Positions 4,255 to 28,079 of a DNA stretch of 32,713 nucleotides are shown here, one piece after another. The stretch lies in the NCBI GenBank assembly GCA_905234925.1, contig CAJOJJ010000024.1:1-32713 (forward strand), written 5' to 3'. How positions within the stretch are numbered: position 1 is the stretch's first letter; the number at the start of each line of letters is the position of its first letter. Source of the DNA: an uncultured Endomicrobiia bacterium (GTDB lineage Bacteria; Elusimicrobiota; Endomicrobiia; Endomicrobiales; Endomicrobiaceae). Both the position numbers and the translations under genes were made by a program. The notes beneath the pieces were generated by a model. The model made no database searches, had not been told where the DNA came from, and was given only the letters and a program-made list of their open reading frames with translations.

Positions 4255-4971
4255 TTATCTTCTTGCTTTTCCCAAAAGTCTCAAAATTTCCAAATACAGC
4301 CAAACGATTGTTACCATTAAAGCAAATGCCCCGTACCATTCCATATATTTCGGGGAACCGTAAGCAACGCCTCTCTGTATCATATCAAAATCTATTATCA
4401 AATTTAAAGAAGCGATTATTACTACAAAAACACTGAACGCAATTCCTATTCCGGAAGAAGAATGTATAAAAGGTATTCCTGCAACGCCGAAAAAAGTCAA
4501 TAACATTTCAACAACATATAATAAACAAATAGCCAACGTCGATACACCAACAATAGCATAGAATTTGTTCGTTGCTTTTATCTTTCCTGCTTTAAATGCA
4601 GCCAACATACAGAACAAAACGCATATTGTTAAAGCAATAGCATTAAAAGCTATGCCCGGATAATCTTTTTCAAAAAACAATGTTAATACGCCGAGAACAA
4701 GGCCTTCGCCGAAAGCATAAAAAGGAGATAAAAACGGAACTGCCGTCTTTTTAAAAACTATTACCAGTGATAAAATAAATGTAACAAGAATTATCGGCAT
4801 AAATAAGGGCATTGTTTGTGCCGGATGCGTCCAGCCGATATATGCACCTGCTGCAAGTATCAGCCACAATATAAGGCTTTTGTTTATTACACCGTTTACG
4901 GTCATAACTTCCTGTCCGAATTCTACACTGCCTGTACTTCTGAATGCTTTGTCGTTTAATACCGGATTCAT
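4255..4971 (-). CDS. Bax inhibitor-1/YccA-family membrane protein
   Basis: 238 residues with about seven hydrophobic helices from residue 34 onward. The N-terminal cytoplasmic segment MNPVLNDKAF is characteristic of the bacterial YccA/Bax-inhibitor subgroup (COG4760-like). The last helices carry the acidic FDMIQRG segment, corresponding to the conserved Asp region of the TMBIM fold (ion/pH-sensing channel in BsYetJ). The precise role in bacteria is unclear. The start is supported by AGAGGAA upstream. Its 5' region is an R9 element ending just before the start codon, so the mRNA leader is probably structured. Confidence 0.85.
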   Translation of the reverse strand: MNPVLNDKAFRSTGSVEFGQEVMTVNGVINKSLILWLILAAGAYIGWTHPAQTMPLFMPIILVTFILSLVIVFKKTAVPFLSPFYAFGEGLVLGVLTLFFEKDYPGIAFNAIALTICVLFCMLAAFKAGKIKATNKFYAIVGVSTLAICLLYVVEMLLTFFGVAGIPFIHSSSGIGIAFSVFVVIIASLNLIIDFDMIQRGVAYGSPKYMEWYGAFALMVTIVWLYLEILRLLGKARR

Positions 4972-4981
4972 AATGAGTTCC

Positions 4982-5142
4982 TCTTTTATAACGATTTGCG
5001 ATTTCTAATTGCGACTTTATATTTGGCTCGCTTATGTGCCAATCGCTTATGCTTTTATTTCAGCACACCGCACTCACCAAATATTTCGTCTCATTGACGA
5101 ACTTGCAAATCTAAAGTTGTAAAAATCACTTCGTGATTTTTT
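4982..5142 (-). repeat. R9 branched element, copy A (upstream of the Bax1-like gene)
   Basis: On the minus strand, P1 is GATTTGC/GCAAATC (plus positions 5105-5111 and 4993-4999). P2 is TTCGTC-AATGA-GACGAA. P3 is ATATTTGGT with GCCAAATAT (5076-5084 and 5019-5027). P4 is GTGTGCT/GGCACAT. A CGAAG-loop hairpin (5121-5142) precedes it. It is followed by CGTTATAA, the Shine-Dalgarno sequence and the ATG at 4971. Confidence 0.8.
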
Positions 5143-6860: not shown

Positions 6861-7018
6861 CAACAAATCGCGAAGCGATTTCCAAGACCGCAGATTTTGA
6901 GATGAGCCGAAGTATTTGGCGAGTGCGGTGTGCTGAAATAAAAGCGAAGCGATTGGCACATAAGCGAGCCAAATACAATGGCGTAGTCCAAAATGTGCGG
7001 TCGTTATAAGGAACTACT
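6861..7018 (+). repeat. R9 branched element, copy B (upstream of bactofilin)
   Basis: P1 is GACCGCA (6886-6892) with TGCGGTC (6996-7002), extended by ATTTTG/CAAAAT after one mismatch. P3 is GTATTTGGC (6912-6920) with GCCAAATAC (6968-6976). P4 is GTGTGCT/GGCACAT (6928-6934/6955-6961). P1 and the outer P3 pair differ from the other copies but stay complementary. A CGAAG-loop hairpin precedes (6864-6881). The P2 hairpin is not evident in this copy. The ATG at 7019 is 16 nt after P1, with AAGGA between. Confidence 0.85.
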
Positions 7019-7381
7019 ATGAAAAATAAAAAACTAGAAGCTATCCAAACATGGATAGGAACGGATACCGTTTTTACGGGCGATATTTCAATGGCTAAAG
7101 GTATCAGAATAGACGGCAAACTTGTAGGGAATATTAAGGAATCCGAAAGTGTTGTAATAGGCGAATCCGCCGAGATTGAAGGAAATATCAACACCAAATA
7201 TATTGTAATTTCAGGAAAAATTAAAGGCAATATCAATGCAAACGACGGTATAGAGCTTTTGAGTACTGCAAAAGTTGAAGGAGATTTGTATACCAATATT
7301 CTTTATATAAACGAAGGTGCAATATTCAGAGGGCAAAGTACCATGCCTGTTGCCGAAACCGAACAGACGCAGGAAAAATAA
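7019..7381 (+). CDS. Bactofilin (polymer-forming cytoskeletal protein)
   Basis: 120-residue bactofilin (DUF583/PF04519 type): a right-handed beta-helix core with short hydrophobic-glycine repeats, here GDISMAKGIRIDGKLVGNI, then EIEGNINTKYIVISGKIKGN and KVEGDLYTNILYINEGA. Flanked by short flexible tails. Bactofilins polymerise without nucleotide and localise cell-wall enzymes. The upstream neighbour is an M23 peptidase with one membrane helix, so both probably act together in cell shape. The leader is R9 copy B, with AAGGA before the ATG. Confidence 0.9.
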   Translation: MKNKKLEAIQTWIGTDTVFTGDISMAKGIRIDGKLVGNIKESESVVIGESAEIEGNINTKYIVISGKIKGNINANDGIELLSTAKVEGDLYTNILYINEGAIFRGQSTMPVAETEQTQEK

Positions 7382-19702: not shown

Positions 19703-19871
19703 AAATTACTGAAGCAATTTTTACAAATGTACAATGTATAATGTATAATGTACAATAAACGACAACAACAAGGTCGTCATTGCGAGGGCTTTAGCTCGTG
19801 GCAATTCGGTGTCGTTACAGCACGCAGTGCTGTCATTCCCGAAAGTCGTAGTCGGGAATCTGTAGTATAAC
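19703..19871 (+). repeat. Composite spacer after the cdaR stump: CGAAG-type hairpin, R2, R4-like, R3
   Basis: Hairpin around 19703-19722 (ACTGAAGC loop), R2 palindromes 19727-19757, diverged R4 (CGTCATTGCGAGGGC, 19775-19807), and GCACGCAGTGC hairpin (19820-19830). R3 then has arms ATTCCCGA/TCGGGAAT (19831-19871). No further YbbR coding sequence was recognised in any frame. Confidence 0.75.
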
Positions 19872-20044
19872 AAAAATTTACGAAGTAAATTTTTACAAAT
19901 TTAGATTTACAGATTCGTTAGTGAGACGAAATATTTGTCGACCGCGGTGTGCTGAAAAGAAAGCGTAAGTGATTGGCACATAAGGAAGACAAATATAAAG
20001 TCGTAACCGAAAATTGTAAATCGTTATATAATGGGGAGAAATTG
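19872..20044 (+). repeat. R9 branched element, copy C (upstream of the phosphorylase)
   Basis: Hairpin AAAATTTAC-GAA-GTAAATTTT (19873-19893) precedes. P1 is GATTTACA/TGTAAATC (19904-19911/20015-20022). P2 is TTCGTT-AGTGA-GACGAA. P3 is ATATTTGTC/GACAAATAT (19931-19939/19988-19996). P4 is GTGTGCT/GGCACAT. In P1 the G-C pair of copy D is replaced by A-T, and in P3 G-C pairs are re-arranged but kept paired. Followed by CGTTATA, GGGGAG and the ATG. Confidence 0.85.
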
Positions 20045-22657
20045 ATGATTAACGAAAAAGAGCTGTTTAATGAAAATCAGGAAGTGTTTTCGGCCGTAAA
20101 AGCAAAACCGTTTGTTGTTACACCGTCTTTGACTGAACCGTTAAAAGATTTAAAAGAAATTTCTGAAAATATGTGGTGGTGCTGGAACAGCGACGCCGTA
20201 GAACTTTTCAGAAGATTGGACAGGCATATTTGGGAAGAGTCTTATCATAATCCCAAAGCAATGCTCGGTCTTGTAAAACAGGAAACGTTGGAAGAACTTT
20301 CTCAAGATACAAGTTTCTTGTCCCATATGAAAATGGTTAAAGATGAACTTGATAAATATATGTCCATGCCGGCATGGTTTGAAAGAACTTTCCCGGAACA
20401 CAAGGATAAAAAAATAGCTTACTTTTCAACGGAATTTGCAATACATGAAAGTTTGCCGATATATTCCGGCGGTTTGGGAGTTTTGTCGGGAGACCATTTA
20501 AAATCCGCCAGTGATATGGGGCTTCCTTTGGTCGGTATCGGACTTTTATACAGAAACGGATATTTTAAACAGCATTTAAGTATCGACGGTTGGCAGATAG
20601 AAGAATACAAAACAAATCATTTCTACAGTATGCCTTTGGAGCTTTTAACCGATGAAAAAGGCGAACCGTTATCAATAAATATAACTCTTCCTCAGAATAA
20701 AACAGTTTTTGCCAGAATTTGGAAAGTAAAAGTGGGAAGAGTTTCGTTGTATCTTCTTGATACGGACTTTGAAAAAAATTCTCCCGAAGACAGAGTTATT
20801 ACCGGAGAACTTTACGGCGGCGACAAAGAAATGAGAATTAAACAGGAAAAACTTCTCGGTGTAGGCGGTATGAGAGTGTTGGAACTTTTAAATATCGAGC
20901 CGTCGGTAATTCATATAAATGAAGGACATTCGGCATTTTTGCTTCTTGAGAAAATAAGAATTTTAATGAAAAAAGGTTTGTCTTTCAGCGAAGCACAGAA
21001 AGTTGTTAAAGCAAACTGTGTATTTACTACACATACTCCCGTTCCTGCAGGAAACGAAGTGTTCTCATCTTCTCTTGTAACAACGTACTTTGAAAGTATG
21101 TATAAAGAGTTAGGTTTGACGAAAGAAGAATTTTTGGCTCTCGGCAAAGATAAAGATATCAAATCCGAAAGTCTTGATAAAGATTTCTCGATGACGATAC
21201 TTGCACTTAAAGCCTGCGGTAAAGCAAACGGCGTTTCAAGGCTGCATGCAACGGTGTCAAGACAGATGTGGCAGAATGTTTGGCCTGATGTTCCCAGAAA
21301 AGAAATTCCCATTACGCATATTACTAACGGTATTCATACAAATACTTGGATATCGTATGAGTTTGCGGGACTTTTCCAAAGATATTTGGGCAGTGCATGG
21401 ATAGATGAACCGGAAGATCAAACTTTGTGGCAGCAGGTTGCCGATATTCCGGATGCGGAACTTTGGAGAAGCCATGAAAGAAGAAAAGAAAGATTGGTAT
21501 CTTTTGCAAGAAACAGATTGAGAGCGCAGTTTGAAAGAAGAGGTTTGTCTAAACATATGATTTCTTTTGCCGACGAGGTTTTGGACCCGGAAGCATTGAC
21601 TATAGGTTTTGCAAGAAGATTTGCAACTTATAAGAGAGGAAATTTGATTTTCAGAAATCTTGATAAAATTAAAAAGATTTTTTTGAATAAAGATAAACCT
21701 GTTCAGATAATTATTGCAGGTAAAGCTCACCCGAAAGACGACAGAGGTAAAGAAATTATAAAGAGCATAGTGTCTCTCACTTCTGATCCCGAATTAAGGC
21801 ATAAAGTAGTTTTTCTTGAAGATTACGATATGAACGTTGCGCATTATTTGGTGCAGGGTGTAGATATTTGGTTGAACAATCCTTTAAGACCCGAAGAAGC
21901 TTCCGGTACCAGCGGAATGAAAGCGGCGGTTAACGGTGCGATAAATTTCAGCGTTCTTGACGGATGGTGGTGTGAGGGGTACAACGGAGAAAACGGCTGG
22001 GTAATAGGCTCTATCGATAAATATGATGATTTGGAATATCAAAATGAAATGGAATCAAGATCCATTTACGAAATACTTGAAAAAGAAATAGTTCCGTTGT
22101 TCTATGACAGAGGTCAGGACAATCTGCCCAGAGGCTGGATAAGCAAAATGAAAACCTGTATGCAGACTGTAGGACCTATGTTTAACACAAACAGAATGAT
22201 TGAAGATTATACCAGAAAATTCTATATTCCGTCGATGGAACAGACCGAGAAAATGAAAGAAAATAATTTTGAGCTTGCCAGAAAAAAAACGGTTTGGCAG
22301 AACAATATTGAGAGAAACTGGTCTAAAGTTTCCGTAATAAGTGCTGAGGATAATATCGGCAATAAAAATATAAAAATCGGCGAGAAAATAAAAATAACCG
22401 CAAAAGTTAATTTGGCAGGAATCAATCCCGAAGATGTTTTCGTTCAGGTCTTCGGCGGATATTTGGCGGCAAATAATGTTTTAAAAGATGAGCGCTTCGA
22501 AAATATGAAGATGGTTTCAAAAGAAGCCGACGGTACATATATTTATGAACTTGAAACGGGAACCAAAATGGTCGGACACTGCGGTTATACAATAAGAATT
22601 GTTCCTCAATATTTGGATAAAGTTGAGTATCTTCCCGGAATAATAAAATGGTTTTAA
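20045..22657 (+). CDS. glgP: Alpha-glucan (glycogen/maltodextrin) phosphorylase
   Basis: 870 residues. Releases glucose-1-phosphate from alpha-1,4-glucans with PLP. The N-terminal region with LKEISENMWWCWN is the DUF3417-type domain of the alpha-glucan-family phosphorylases. Then SGGLGVLSGDHLKSASDMGLP and, in the C-terminal third (about 21892-21960), RPEEASGTSGMKAAVNGA with the PLP lysine. I choose the ATG at 20045, after GGGGAG. An upstream in-frame ATG at 19973 lies inside R9 copy C and would add 24 residues of repeat-derived sequence. The HAD phosphatase gene overlaps its end by 10 nt. Confidence 0.93.
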   Translation: MINEKELFNENQEVFSAVKAKPFVVTPSLTEPLKDLKEISENMWWCWNSDAVELFRRLDRHIWEESYHNPKAMLGLVKQETLEELSQDTSFLSHMKMVKDELDKYMSMPAWFERTFPEHKDKKIAYFSTEFAIHESLPIYSGGLGVLSGDHLKSASDMGLPLVGIGLLYRNGYFKQHLSIDGWQIEEYKTNHFYSMPLELLTDEKGEPLSINITLPQNKTVFARIWKVKVGRVSLYLLDTDFEKNSPEDRVITGELYGGDKEMRIKQEKLLGVGGMRVLELLNIEPSVIHINEGHSAFLLLEKIRILMKKGLSFSEAQKVVKANCVFTTHTPVPAGNEVFSSSLVTTYFESMYKELGLTKEEFLALGKDKDIKSESLDKDFSMTILALKACGKANGVSRLHATVSRQMWQNVWPDVPRKEIPITHITNGIHTNTWISYEFAGLFQRYLGSAWIDEPEDQTLWQQVADIPDAELWRSHERRKERLVSFARNRLRAQFERRGLSKHMISFADEVLDPEALTIGFARRFATYKRGNLIFRNLDKIKKIFLNKDKPVQIIIAGKAHPKDDRGKEIIKSIVSLTSDPELRHKVVFLEDYDMNVAHYLVQGVDIWLNNPLRPEEASGTSGMKAAVNGAINFSVLDGWWCEGYNGENGWVIGSIDKYDDLEYQNEMESRSIYEILEKEIVPLFYDRGQDNLPRGWISKMKTCMQTVGPMFNTNRMIEDYTRKFYIPSMEQTEKMKENNFELARKKTVWQNNIERNWSKVSVISAEDNIGNKNIKIGEKIKITAKVNLAGINPEDVFVQVFGGYLAANNVLKDERFENMKMVSKEADGTYIYELETGTKMVGHCGYTIRIVPQYLDKVEYLPGIIKWF

Positions 22658-26495: not shown

Positions 26496-26718
26496 AGCAA
26501 AAAGGAAATATATTCTCGTTTGCTCAATCGCCATTCGCTCCAATTTTTGAGACCAACGCTTAACTAGCTTTCCCTAACAACCTAAGGAAAACGGGAAAGC
26601 GTCGAACAAAAAGCGAGCCCTGCGGGAAAAAACTTTAGCCGTTAATCAGTTTTTTGTCTCAAAAATTGTTCGCTCATAGACGGCTACAGGCTGCACTCGA
26701 ACATATTTCCTTTTTGCT
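26496..26718 (+). repeat. R10 structured element, copy 2, bounded by 16-bp perfect inverted repeats
   Basis: Ends AGCAAAAAGGAAATAT (26496-26511) and its exact reverse complement (26703-26718). Inside, TTCTCGTTTGCT (26513-26524), CCATTCGCT (26531-26539) and TTCGCTCATAGACGG (26669-26683) match copy 1. A 13-bp perfect inverted repeat CAATTTTTGAGAC/GTCTCAAAAATTG (26541-26553/26656-26668) encloses GCTTTCCC/GGGAAAGC and AAAAACT/AGTTTTT hairpins. No open frame of note; resembles a miniature inverted-repeat element or structured RNA. Confidence 0.75.
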
Positions 26719-26745
26719 GTTTACCGTTAAGCTAAATAATAACAA

Positions 26746-26909
26746 AAAGTGCGAAGCACTTTTTACAACTTTAGATTTGCAAGTTCGTCAGTGAGACGAA
26801 ATATTTGGCGACTGCGGTGTGCTGAAAAGAAAGCGTAAGCGGTTGGCACATAAGGGAGTCAAATATAAAGTCGTAACTAGAAATTGCAAATCGTTATAAG
26901 AGCAACAAT
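26746..26909 (+). repeat. R9 branched element, copy D (upstream of rlmI)
   Basis: Hairpin AAAAAGTGC-GAA-GCACTTTTT precedes. P1 is GATTTGCAA/TTGCAAATC (26774-26782/26884-26892). P2 is TTCGTC-AGTGA-GACGAA (26784-26800). P3 is ATATTTGGC/GTCAAATAT (26801-26809/26858-26866, one G-U). P4 is GTGTGCT/GGCACAT (26817-26823/26845-26851). Then CGTTATAAGAGCAACAAT and the ATG at 26910; no strong Shine-Dalgarno in this copy. Confidence 0.85.
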
Positions 26910-28079
26910 ATGAAAAATATAATACTAAAAAAATCTGAAGAAAAAAGAGTAAAGTCCGGTCATCAGTGGATATTTTCCAACGAAATTAAAGATATTCTCG
27001 GCAAGCCTCAATCCGGCGAGATTGTGGAATGTTATGATTCTTCAAACAATTTTATCGGTATAGGTTTTTATAATTCTCATTCCTTAATAGCATTCAGACT
27101 GATATCACAAAAAAATGAAATAGTCGATGTAAAATTTTGGCAAAATAAAATTGCAAAGGCTTACGAATTCAGAAAAATTTTATATCCCGCACAAAACTCT
27201 TTTAGAGCCTTTTACGGCGAAAGCGACGGAATAAGCGGATTTATTCTTGATAAATATGAAGATTACTGCGTTGCGCAGTTTATTTCCGCAGGGGCAGATA
27301 AAAATAAACATGATATTTTGGAAGCAGTCCAAAATGTTATTGAACCTAAAGGAATTATGGTTCGTAACGATTCTGCTTTAAGAAAACTTGAAGAACTTCC
27401 GCAGGAAAACGAAGTATATTCCGGCGAAATTCCCGACGATATTATAATAACGGAAAACGATATAAAATATTATGTTAATATTAAATCCGGTCAGAAAACA
27501 GGTTTCTTCTTTGACCAAAGAGATAACAGAAAATTACTTCAAAAATACTGTAAAGATAAAAAAGTTTTGGATTGTTTTACGCATACGGGTTCTTTCGGTC
27601 TTAATGCTTTAAAAGCAGGTGCAAAGGAAGTAACTTTTGTGGATTCTTCTAGACCGTCGCTTGAAATAGCATCGAAAAATTATGAGTTAAACGGTTACAA
27701 AAATTTTAACGGTATAGTTGCCGATGCTCAGGAATATATTTGTTCCAAAGAGGCTGCCGGAGAAAATTTTGAAGTGGTAAATATTGATCCTCCCGGACTT
27801 ATAAAAAGTAAAAAAGATTTTTTTGCAGGATACAAACATTATGCCAAGCTTAACGAACAGGCTGTAAGATTATTAAAAAACGGTGGGATATTTGCGACAA
27901 GTTCATGTTCGCACCATTTATCGCCGAGTGATTTTGTAAAGATGATTAGAGAGGCTTGTTCAAGAGCCGGGAAAACGGGAGTGTTTTTGGAACTTTCCAC
28001 GCAGGCGAAGGATCACCCTATTCTTATATCCATGCCTGAAACACAGTATTTGAAATTCGCCATATTGCGAATTTTTTAA
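26910..28079 (+). CDS. rlmI: RlmI-like 23S rRNA (cytosine-C5) methyltransferase
   Basis: 389 residues, matching the RlmI (YccW) family: N-terminal PUA domain (KSGHQWIFSNEI, about 1-75), central linker with GESDGISGFILDKY and SGQKTGFFFDQRDNR, then a Rossmann methyltransferase domain with VLDCFTHTGSFGL (SAM motif I), NIDPPG (motif IV) and SSCSHH carrying the catalytic Cys (motif VI). In E. coli it modifies C1962 of 23S rRNA; the exact target here is inferred. The leader is R9 copy D. Confidence 0.9.
   Translation: MKNIILKKSEEKRVKSGHQWIFSNEIKDILGKPQSGEIVECYDSSNNFIGIGFYNSHSLIAFRLISQKNEIVDVKFWQNKIAKAYEFRKILYPAQNSFRAFYGESDGISGFILDKYEDYCVAQFISAGADKNKHDILEAVQNVIEPKGIMVRNDSALRKLEELPQENEVYSGEIPDDIIITENDIKYYVNIKSGQKTGFFFDQRDNRKLLQKYCKDKKVLDCFTHTGSFGLNALKAGAKEVTFVDSSRPSLEIASKNYELNGYKNFNGIVADAQEYICSKEAAGENFEVVNIDPPGLIKSKKDFFAGYKHYAKLNEQAVRLLKNGGIFATSSCSHHLSPSDFVKMIREACSRAGKTGVFLELSTQAKDHPILISMPETQYLKFAILRIF

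Follow-up and report, generated by a model that had tools for sequence, protein, structure and literature searches.

Four copies of a structured repeat, each ending shortly before the start codon of a gene, raise the question of whether a 32,713-nucleotide stretch of DNA from an uncultured Endomicrobiia bacterium (the whole stretch analysed, referred to here as the window) carries RNA devices in its 5' untranslated regions or copies of a mobile palindrome. The sequence-only reading of the window had allowed for both, as selection on an RNA fold or on a mobile cruciform. The mobile palindrome is supported by dispersed copies, presence and absence at equivalent sites, replacement of one subfamily by another and ladders of partial copies, whereas a general RNA device is opposed by antisense copies and the lack of a G-U bias. 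The best explanation, with a probability of roughly 0.6, is a non-autonomous mobile palindrome of the ERIC or MITE kind that lands and is replaced at gene edges, with mobility as the probable cause of the observed pattern. The assembly holding the window comprises 1.37 Mb and is 85.9% complete, and the closest named relatives of the rlmI gene in the window belong to Candidatus Ruminimicrobiellum MAGs from ruminants (Endomicrobia, Elusimicrobiota).

All four copies lie where they had initially been placed, copy A on the minus strand and copies B, C and D on the plus strand (Table 1). GCGGTGTGCTGAA and TTGGCACATAAG are indeed invariant in these copies, and each has the CGTTATA tail, with an ATG 11-17 nt beyond it. 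The genes that follow are also those originally named, and they are unrelated to one another; Pfam classes them as BaxI-like, bactofilin, DUF3417/phosphorylase and, for the fourth, an RlmI-type protein combining PUA and methyltransferase. The leader hairpin seen in copy B (AAATCGCGAAGCGATTT) is common to most copies found at start codons. To the left of copy D, at 26500-26720 of the window, there is a separate long inverted repeat, AGCAAAAAGGAAATAT..ATATTTCCTTTTTGCT, which occupies much of the intergenic space from the YqeY gene to copy D.

Table 1. Copies of the repeat in the window, with their leader hairpins and adjoining genes (CM R1, covariance model R1).
Feature	Position	Strand	Basis or remark
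Copy A rod hairpin including CGTTATA tail	4987..5114	-	CM R1 108.3 bits, E 2.3e-25
Copy A small leader hairpin, GAA-type loop, left of rod	5121..5141	-	Sequence
Copy A gene, BaxI-like	4255-4971	-	ATG 16 nt past rod; Pfam BaxI_1
Copy B rod hairpin, GACCGCA/TGCGGTC subfamily	6883..7008	+	CM R1 149.4 bits, E 3.3e-36 (copy B is in the seed of R1)
Copy B small leader hairpin, AAATCGCGAAGCGATTT	6865..6882	+	Sequence
Copy B gene, bactofilin	ATG at 7019		Pfam Bactofilin
Copy C rod hairpin, GATTTAC/GTAAATC subfamily	19901..20028	+	CM R1 97.0 bits, E 2.1e-22
Copy C small leader hairpin, AAATTTACGAAGTAAATTT	19874..19892	+	Sequence
Copy C gene, DUF3417/phosphorylase	ATG at 20045		Pfam
Copy D rod hairpin, GATTTGCAA/TTGCAAATC subfamily	26771..26898	+	CM R1 109.1 bits, E 1.3e-25
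Copy D small leader hairpin, AAAGTGCGAAGCACTTT	26746..26763	+	Sequence
Copy D gene, rlmI-like methyltransferase	ATG at 26910		G004 ortholog of copy D 97% identical

The complete element, roughly 165 bp long, opens with a small leader hairpin, continues as a rod of about 115-130 nt whose unpaired loops are conserved, and closes with a CGNTATAA-type tail. The rod is single and continuous, running from P1 and P1b through 3 bp, a GA/GTA loop, 3 bp and a GAA/AAA loop to P3, and from there through a GA/GA loop, 2 bp and a GCG/AA loop to P4 and a variable tip. Its unpaired sites are kept (GA opposite GTA, GAA opposite AAA, GCG opposite AA) while the letters of the stems drift. The covariation that had been claimed for these stems extends far beyond chance. 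In a MAFFT alignment of 13 copies, made without fitting to structure, the 36-pair rod is formed by 93.8% of cells, and pairing falls to 24-40% when the partner is slid by 1-3 columns as a control. Both sides have changed in 20 of the 36 pairs, against 9.5 in shuffles, and the covariation score of the rod was reached by none of 500 shuffles. Covariation is also overwhelming in copies at start codons (229 double-change cells versus 75 when shuffled) and in copies at stop codons (467 versus 134) taken separately.

The fold itself differs from the branched plan with a separate P2 that was first drawn. The P2 hairpin (CGTC..GACG) is confined to the GATTTGC subfamily, and its letters are conserved segments of the continuous rod; copy B and other subfamilies lack P2 while the pairs of the rod covary, and the branched fold was therefore rejected. 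A short ORF in the apical region was also rejected, as it is open in some copies only. At L140:1488-1648, the apical half is swapped for unrelated sequence (CGACAGCTGAAAAGGTG..CTCAGCTAATAG) and both outer arms are kept.

R1 detects 73 copies in the genome of the window (G000, Candidatus Ruminimicrobiellum, Endomicrobia) and 61 in G004, one of seven fully examined relatives, which contain 10-69 copies each (69 in G003, 62 in G010, 55 in G006, 37 in G016, 27 in G008 and 10 in G020). A search of 341 genomes from the phylum gave matches in 47, some of them in other orders and families, with E values as low as 1e-11; it was run with stricter filters, and the weaker matches in distant families do not give copy numbers. 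Copies from distant relatives fold as the same rod and keep unpaired GA, GAA, AAA and GCA, and in several the arms are lengthened by further perfect repeats. In one distant family, at L147:3027-3136 and its flanks, the arms of the rod run into perfect inverted repeats (GGGCTTGGAAAGGAATAATATGCGCATTTGGCTG..), producing a very long hairpin.

A negative control of 565 kb from other phyla gave no R1 match at E <=1. Against Rfam (4227 families), the window has matches above the gathering threshold to tRNA only, and nothing relevant was detected at E <=1 in the loci of five genomes. An origin in phage was discarded after no match was found among phage records; two viral contigs match a loose pattern and do not fold as the rod, and are therefore taken as chance. 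The consulted part of a 2024 survey of Endomicrobia genomes mentions insertion sequences and CRISPR and no such repeat (PMC11257099). The repeat family is undescribed in Rfam or the literature searched, and it has detectable relatives in several Elusimicrobiota families. Another dispersed palindrome family (GTCATTCCCGA..TCGGGAATCTATG / GTCATTGCGGACTTGATCCGCAATCTATG / GTCATTGCGAG..GGCAATCC) shares the same intergenic regions, with sites in L013, L038, L050, L065 and L339 and at 19832-19870 of the window.

The position of the element relative to genes is the first indication that the four copies in the window are not representative. Across G000, the 3' (right) end of the element abuts a CDS at 71 of 74 loci. 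Only 26 of these 71 copies are in the sense orientation, 10-47 nt before a start codon; the other 45 are antisense and end -4 to +35 nt from the stop codon of an opposite-strand gene. The statement that the element always ends just before a start codon consequently holds inside the window only and is a property of that sample, as about two-thirds of all copies end at opposite-strand stop codons. A CDS of at least 150 aa is found within 40 nt of the right end at 62 of the 74 loci and of the left end at two, and the corresponding figures in G004 are 41 and 1 of 54. Several intergenic regions with two copies have the left ends face to face and the tails directed toward both flanking genes. What is targeted is the CDS edge, whether start or stop, and not the ribosome-binding region as had been suggested. 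The adjoining genes are unrelated housekeeping genes that do not form a functionally coherent set, with rplL, rpsU, rpsA, tuf, groEL, tatA, aroC and ispH among those that have a copy at the start codon. A promoter within the CGTTATAA tail was considered and set aside, because a Shine-Dalgarno sequence lies too close behind it and copies at stop codons have the tail as well.

Partial copies provide a second line of evidence. Outside the full copies, fragments corresponding to the 5' half of the element were detected 28 times in the G000 loci and 13 times in G004, and all 41 (28/28 and 13/13) are on the same strand as the full copy and to its left. Neither the copies of one ladder nor those of the two species are independent of each other, and counts are therefore given here and no probability. 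The fragments are stacked up to three in a row and often derive from other subfamilies. They end at element positions 22-53, most often at 43-46 (12 of the 28 in G000), where the last helix begins. None extends into the 3' arm, and the cut lies at the hairpin tip or ahead of it. Free 3' halves are uncommon, with two at start codons (L012 and L014) and a third in L020. At L243 of G004, the gene and the new copy are separated by an older 3' arm that has refolded into a small, perfect hairpin, and loss of the 3' arm is therefore not universal. Together, the polarity and the ladders constitute an ordered record of successive insertions, which makes the mechanism testable from sequence.

A comparison of G000 and G004 shows turnover at individual sites. 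Both genomes have a copy at 21 orthologous gene edges, where the adjoining gene DNA is mostly 82-93% identical. At 16 of the 21, the copies belong to clearly different subfamilies, with an element identity of 0.51-0.70 and mostly different arms; at the other five, they are 91-97% identical. Copy A is absent from the BaxI edge in G004, which is occupied by an unrelated palindromic repeat of the dispersed GTCATTCCCGA..TCGGGAATCTATG-type family. Several features by which a MITE is recognised are observed: the palindrome is short and non-coding, its intergenic copies are many and dispersed, and its presence at orthologous sites is polymorphic, as seen in both the absence of copy A and the replacement of subfamilies.

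These observations suggest a mechanism in which new copies would enter at CDS edges with the tail toward the gene, whichever way that gene runs. A new copy would displace the older occupant, with the incoming unit of leader, rod and tail taking the gene-side position, the old 3' arm being lost and the old 5' arm staying behind as debris. The pairing and the loops would be kept because they are needed for propagation, and not mainly for any RNA work of each copy. Propagation would probably depend on a recombination enzyme that recognises the folded plus strand or a cruciform. A structure-specific activity would act on the last helix of the folded strand, at either its base or its tip, and the exchange itself could be the work of a dedicated recombinase or of break repair by copying. 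It is a tentative proposal that this represents a new mode of propagation, in which a folded strand is recognised, entry occurs only at CDS edges in a fixed polarity, the resident is cut at the hairpin tip, its 3' half is replaced and an ordered record of 5' halves is left, and which has lasted in several families of a single phylum with neither a Y1 transposase nor a reverse transcriptase. Counting against the reading as a mobile palindrome, the strict polarity at CDS edges is unusual for a transposon and fits no known target rule. By eye, a AACTTTAT-like direct repeat flanks the T-tract subfamily described below; no clean insertion with a target-site duplication was found, the empty sites not being sharp enough.

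Among the enzyme families searched, the candidates are scarce. The Y1 (HUH) transposase family (PF01797) has one match in G000 and no match in G003, G004, G006, G008, G010 and G016, which carry 27-69 copies each, and reverse transcriptase (PF00078) has no match in G003, G006, G008 and G016. REP/RAYT and retroelement origins were rejected owing to the absence of these enzymes from several carriers. G003 contains only two Phage_integrase (tyrosine recombinase) genes, compared with its 69 copies. In a scan of 29 genomes from the class and order, SbcD (TIGR00619) gave no hit above the cut-off, and it was detected in 13 of 14 control genomes. As it is undetected in any Ruminimicrobiellum genome or in G016, hairpin cutting by SbcCD was rejected as the source of the 5' halves; the same absence would make long palindromes tolerable and is a possible reason why they are tolerated here.

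The scarcity of enzymes has to be weighed together with the possibility that no dedicated enzyme exists. Hairpins could break or stall replication, and repair would then copy another element into the site, relying on homology of the tail next to the gene and joining illegitimately at the opposite end, with template switching inside the palindrome keeping the arms complementary. This would explain the one-sided outcome, with its precise right edge and variable left join at the hairpin tip, and it is consistent with the symmetric counts of G-T and A-C mismatches (see below), with the shrunken older hairpin at L243, the arms of which are now perfectly complementary, and with complete carriers that have neither Y1 nor reverse transcriptase and, in every carrier tested, no detectable SbcD, a nuclease that destroys palindromes. 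However, the common tail is merely about 8-20 nt long, the leader on the left comes as a defined unit, and the internal loops are unpaired in all families although correction between the arms alone would erase them. We regard this account as doubtful.

If the element is a mobile palindrome, the selection that maintains its stems need not act on RNA, and the types of mismatch in the stems offer a way to distinguish the two. A single folded RNA strand should favour G-U. In well-paired columns, the ratio of G-T to A-C was 19:13, 22:24 and 6:11, or about 1:1, in alignments fitted to the covariance model; such alignments lean toward structure, a tendency that should give A-C no advantage over G-T. 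The stems of tRNAs from these loci, a small control of 14 tRNAs, gave 19:2. Equal numbers of G-T and A-C fit either neutral decay after arrival, while the propagating lineages keep their pairing, or pairing of both strands. In addition, the same unpaired letters (GA, GAA, AAA, GTA, GCG/AA) are kept on the same strand in start-type and stop-type copies, and in the stop-codon class the strand with the conserved loops is antisense to the adjoining gene. The original suggestion of a 5'-UTR device, taken as a general function, is not supported on these two points, with 45 of 71 copies antisense after stop codons with the same loops and no excess of G-U over A-C. Strong covariation can evidently arise without selection on RNA, which is a trap for RNA discovery pipelines, and counts of G-U versus A-C can tell the two apart.

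A broader form of the RNA hypothesis is that the element is a cis-acting RNA (a leader RNA, a stability element or a protein-binding site) selected in place, with its range extended to 3' UTRs. The 26 sense copies before start codons, including those of rplL, rpsU, rpsA, tuf and groEL, and the conserved loop letters are in its favour, as are the rplL and rlmI copies, which are 97% identical between G000 and G004 when the 4-fold sites are 68% and 46% identical, respectively. These orthologous copies are nearer to each other than to any paralog, and they are therefore constrained or recently homogenised. This also counts against the mobile-palindrome reading and points to a host function for some copies: the single 5'-UTR copies at rplL and rlmI may be functional, perhaps adopted as leader sequences. 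Nonetheless, a cis-acting RNA is unlikely as an explanation of the family, given that about two-thirds of copies are antisense to the adjoining gene with the same loops on the same strand, that there is no wobble bias, that the BaxI ortholog of G004 is not preceded by copy A, that most edges shared by the two genomes have different subfamilies, and that the genes are unrelated. The features that define a leader RNA or riboswitch, namely a sense position in the 5' UTR, a coherent gene set and RNA-type tolerance of G-U, do not hold for the family as a whole. In the preferred reading of a mobile palindrome, start-type copies in 5' leaders could have a secondary role as UTR structures, and a few of them were apparently kept by the host.

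All 25 copies of the subfamily with a T-tract base (AAAAAACAGC..GCTGTTTTTT) adjoin stop codons and could serve there as terminators, and in other stop-type copies the leader contains a T-rich hairpin. The idea that the whole family consists of terminators or transcription insulators, multiplied by duplication and kept for ending transcription at gene ends, draws on both facts and is very unlikely, since 26 copies are at start codons (the subfamilies without a T-tract base comprise 20 stop and 26 start copies, n = 46), the base of several stop-type subfamilies has no T tract, and neither a 110-nt rod with conserved loops nor a fixed antisense strand is needed for a terminator.

On this evidence, the repeat is filed among the palindromic intergenic repeats and not with riboswitches or other leader RNAs. 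Several known systems share parts of its organisation. The BOX, RUP and SPRITE repeats of pneumococcus are described, in the sections consulted, as structured intergenic repeats, with BOX often supplying the stop codon at gene 3' ends; BOX has a modular architecture, and a fixed gene-facing end or truncated ladders are not reported for it there (PMC3049150). REP sequences, with their RAYT/TnpA-REP partners, are likewise palindromes scattered near genes, and a conserved unpaired portion of them is recognised as single-stranded DNA (PMC3733652, PMC8266576). REPs are 20-40 bp long and have a GTAG or CGTC tag, whereas the Elusimicrobiota element is without such a tag and six of its carriers are without Y1. 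The attC sites of integrons are also imperfect rods recognised by structure, with conserved unpaired bases, and they adjoin gene ends, with the next gene starting shortly past the 3' end of the site. Unlike attC, the Elusimicrobiota element occurs as dispersed single copies beside housekeeping genes, with no cassette array seen and no fit to R'/R'' boxes by eye, and G003 has only its two tyrosine recombinases. Judged by how the element appears to work, ERIC and other palindromic MITEs are closest; ERIC is a 127-bp imperfect palindrome with many intergenic copies, likely a MITE, which has orientation-dependent effects when co-transcribed (PMC3049150, PMC3733652). The likeness to ERIC is one of description (an imperfect palindrome of similar length with many intergenic copies), with no sequence relation found, and the Elusimicrobiota element differs in having its tail toward the CDS edge, one-sided ladders of 5' halves, replacement between subfamilies, and unpaired loops that are conserved in several families of one phylum.
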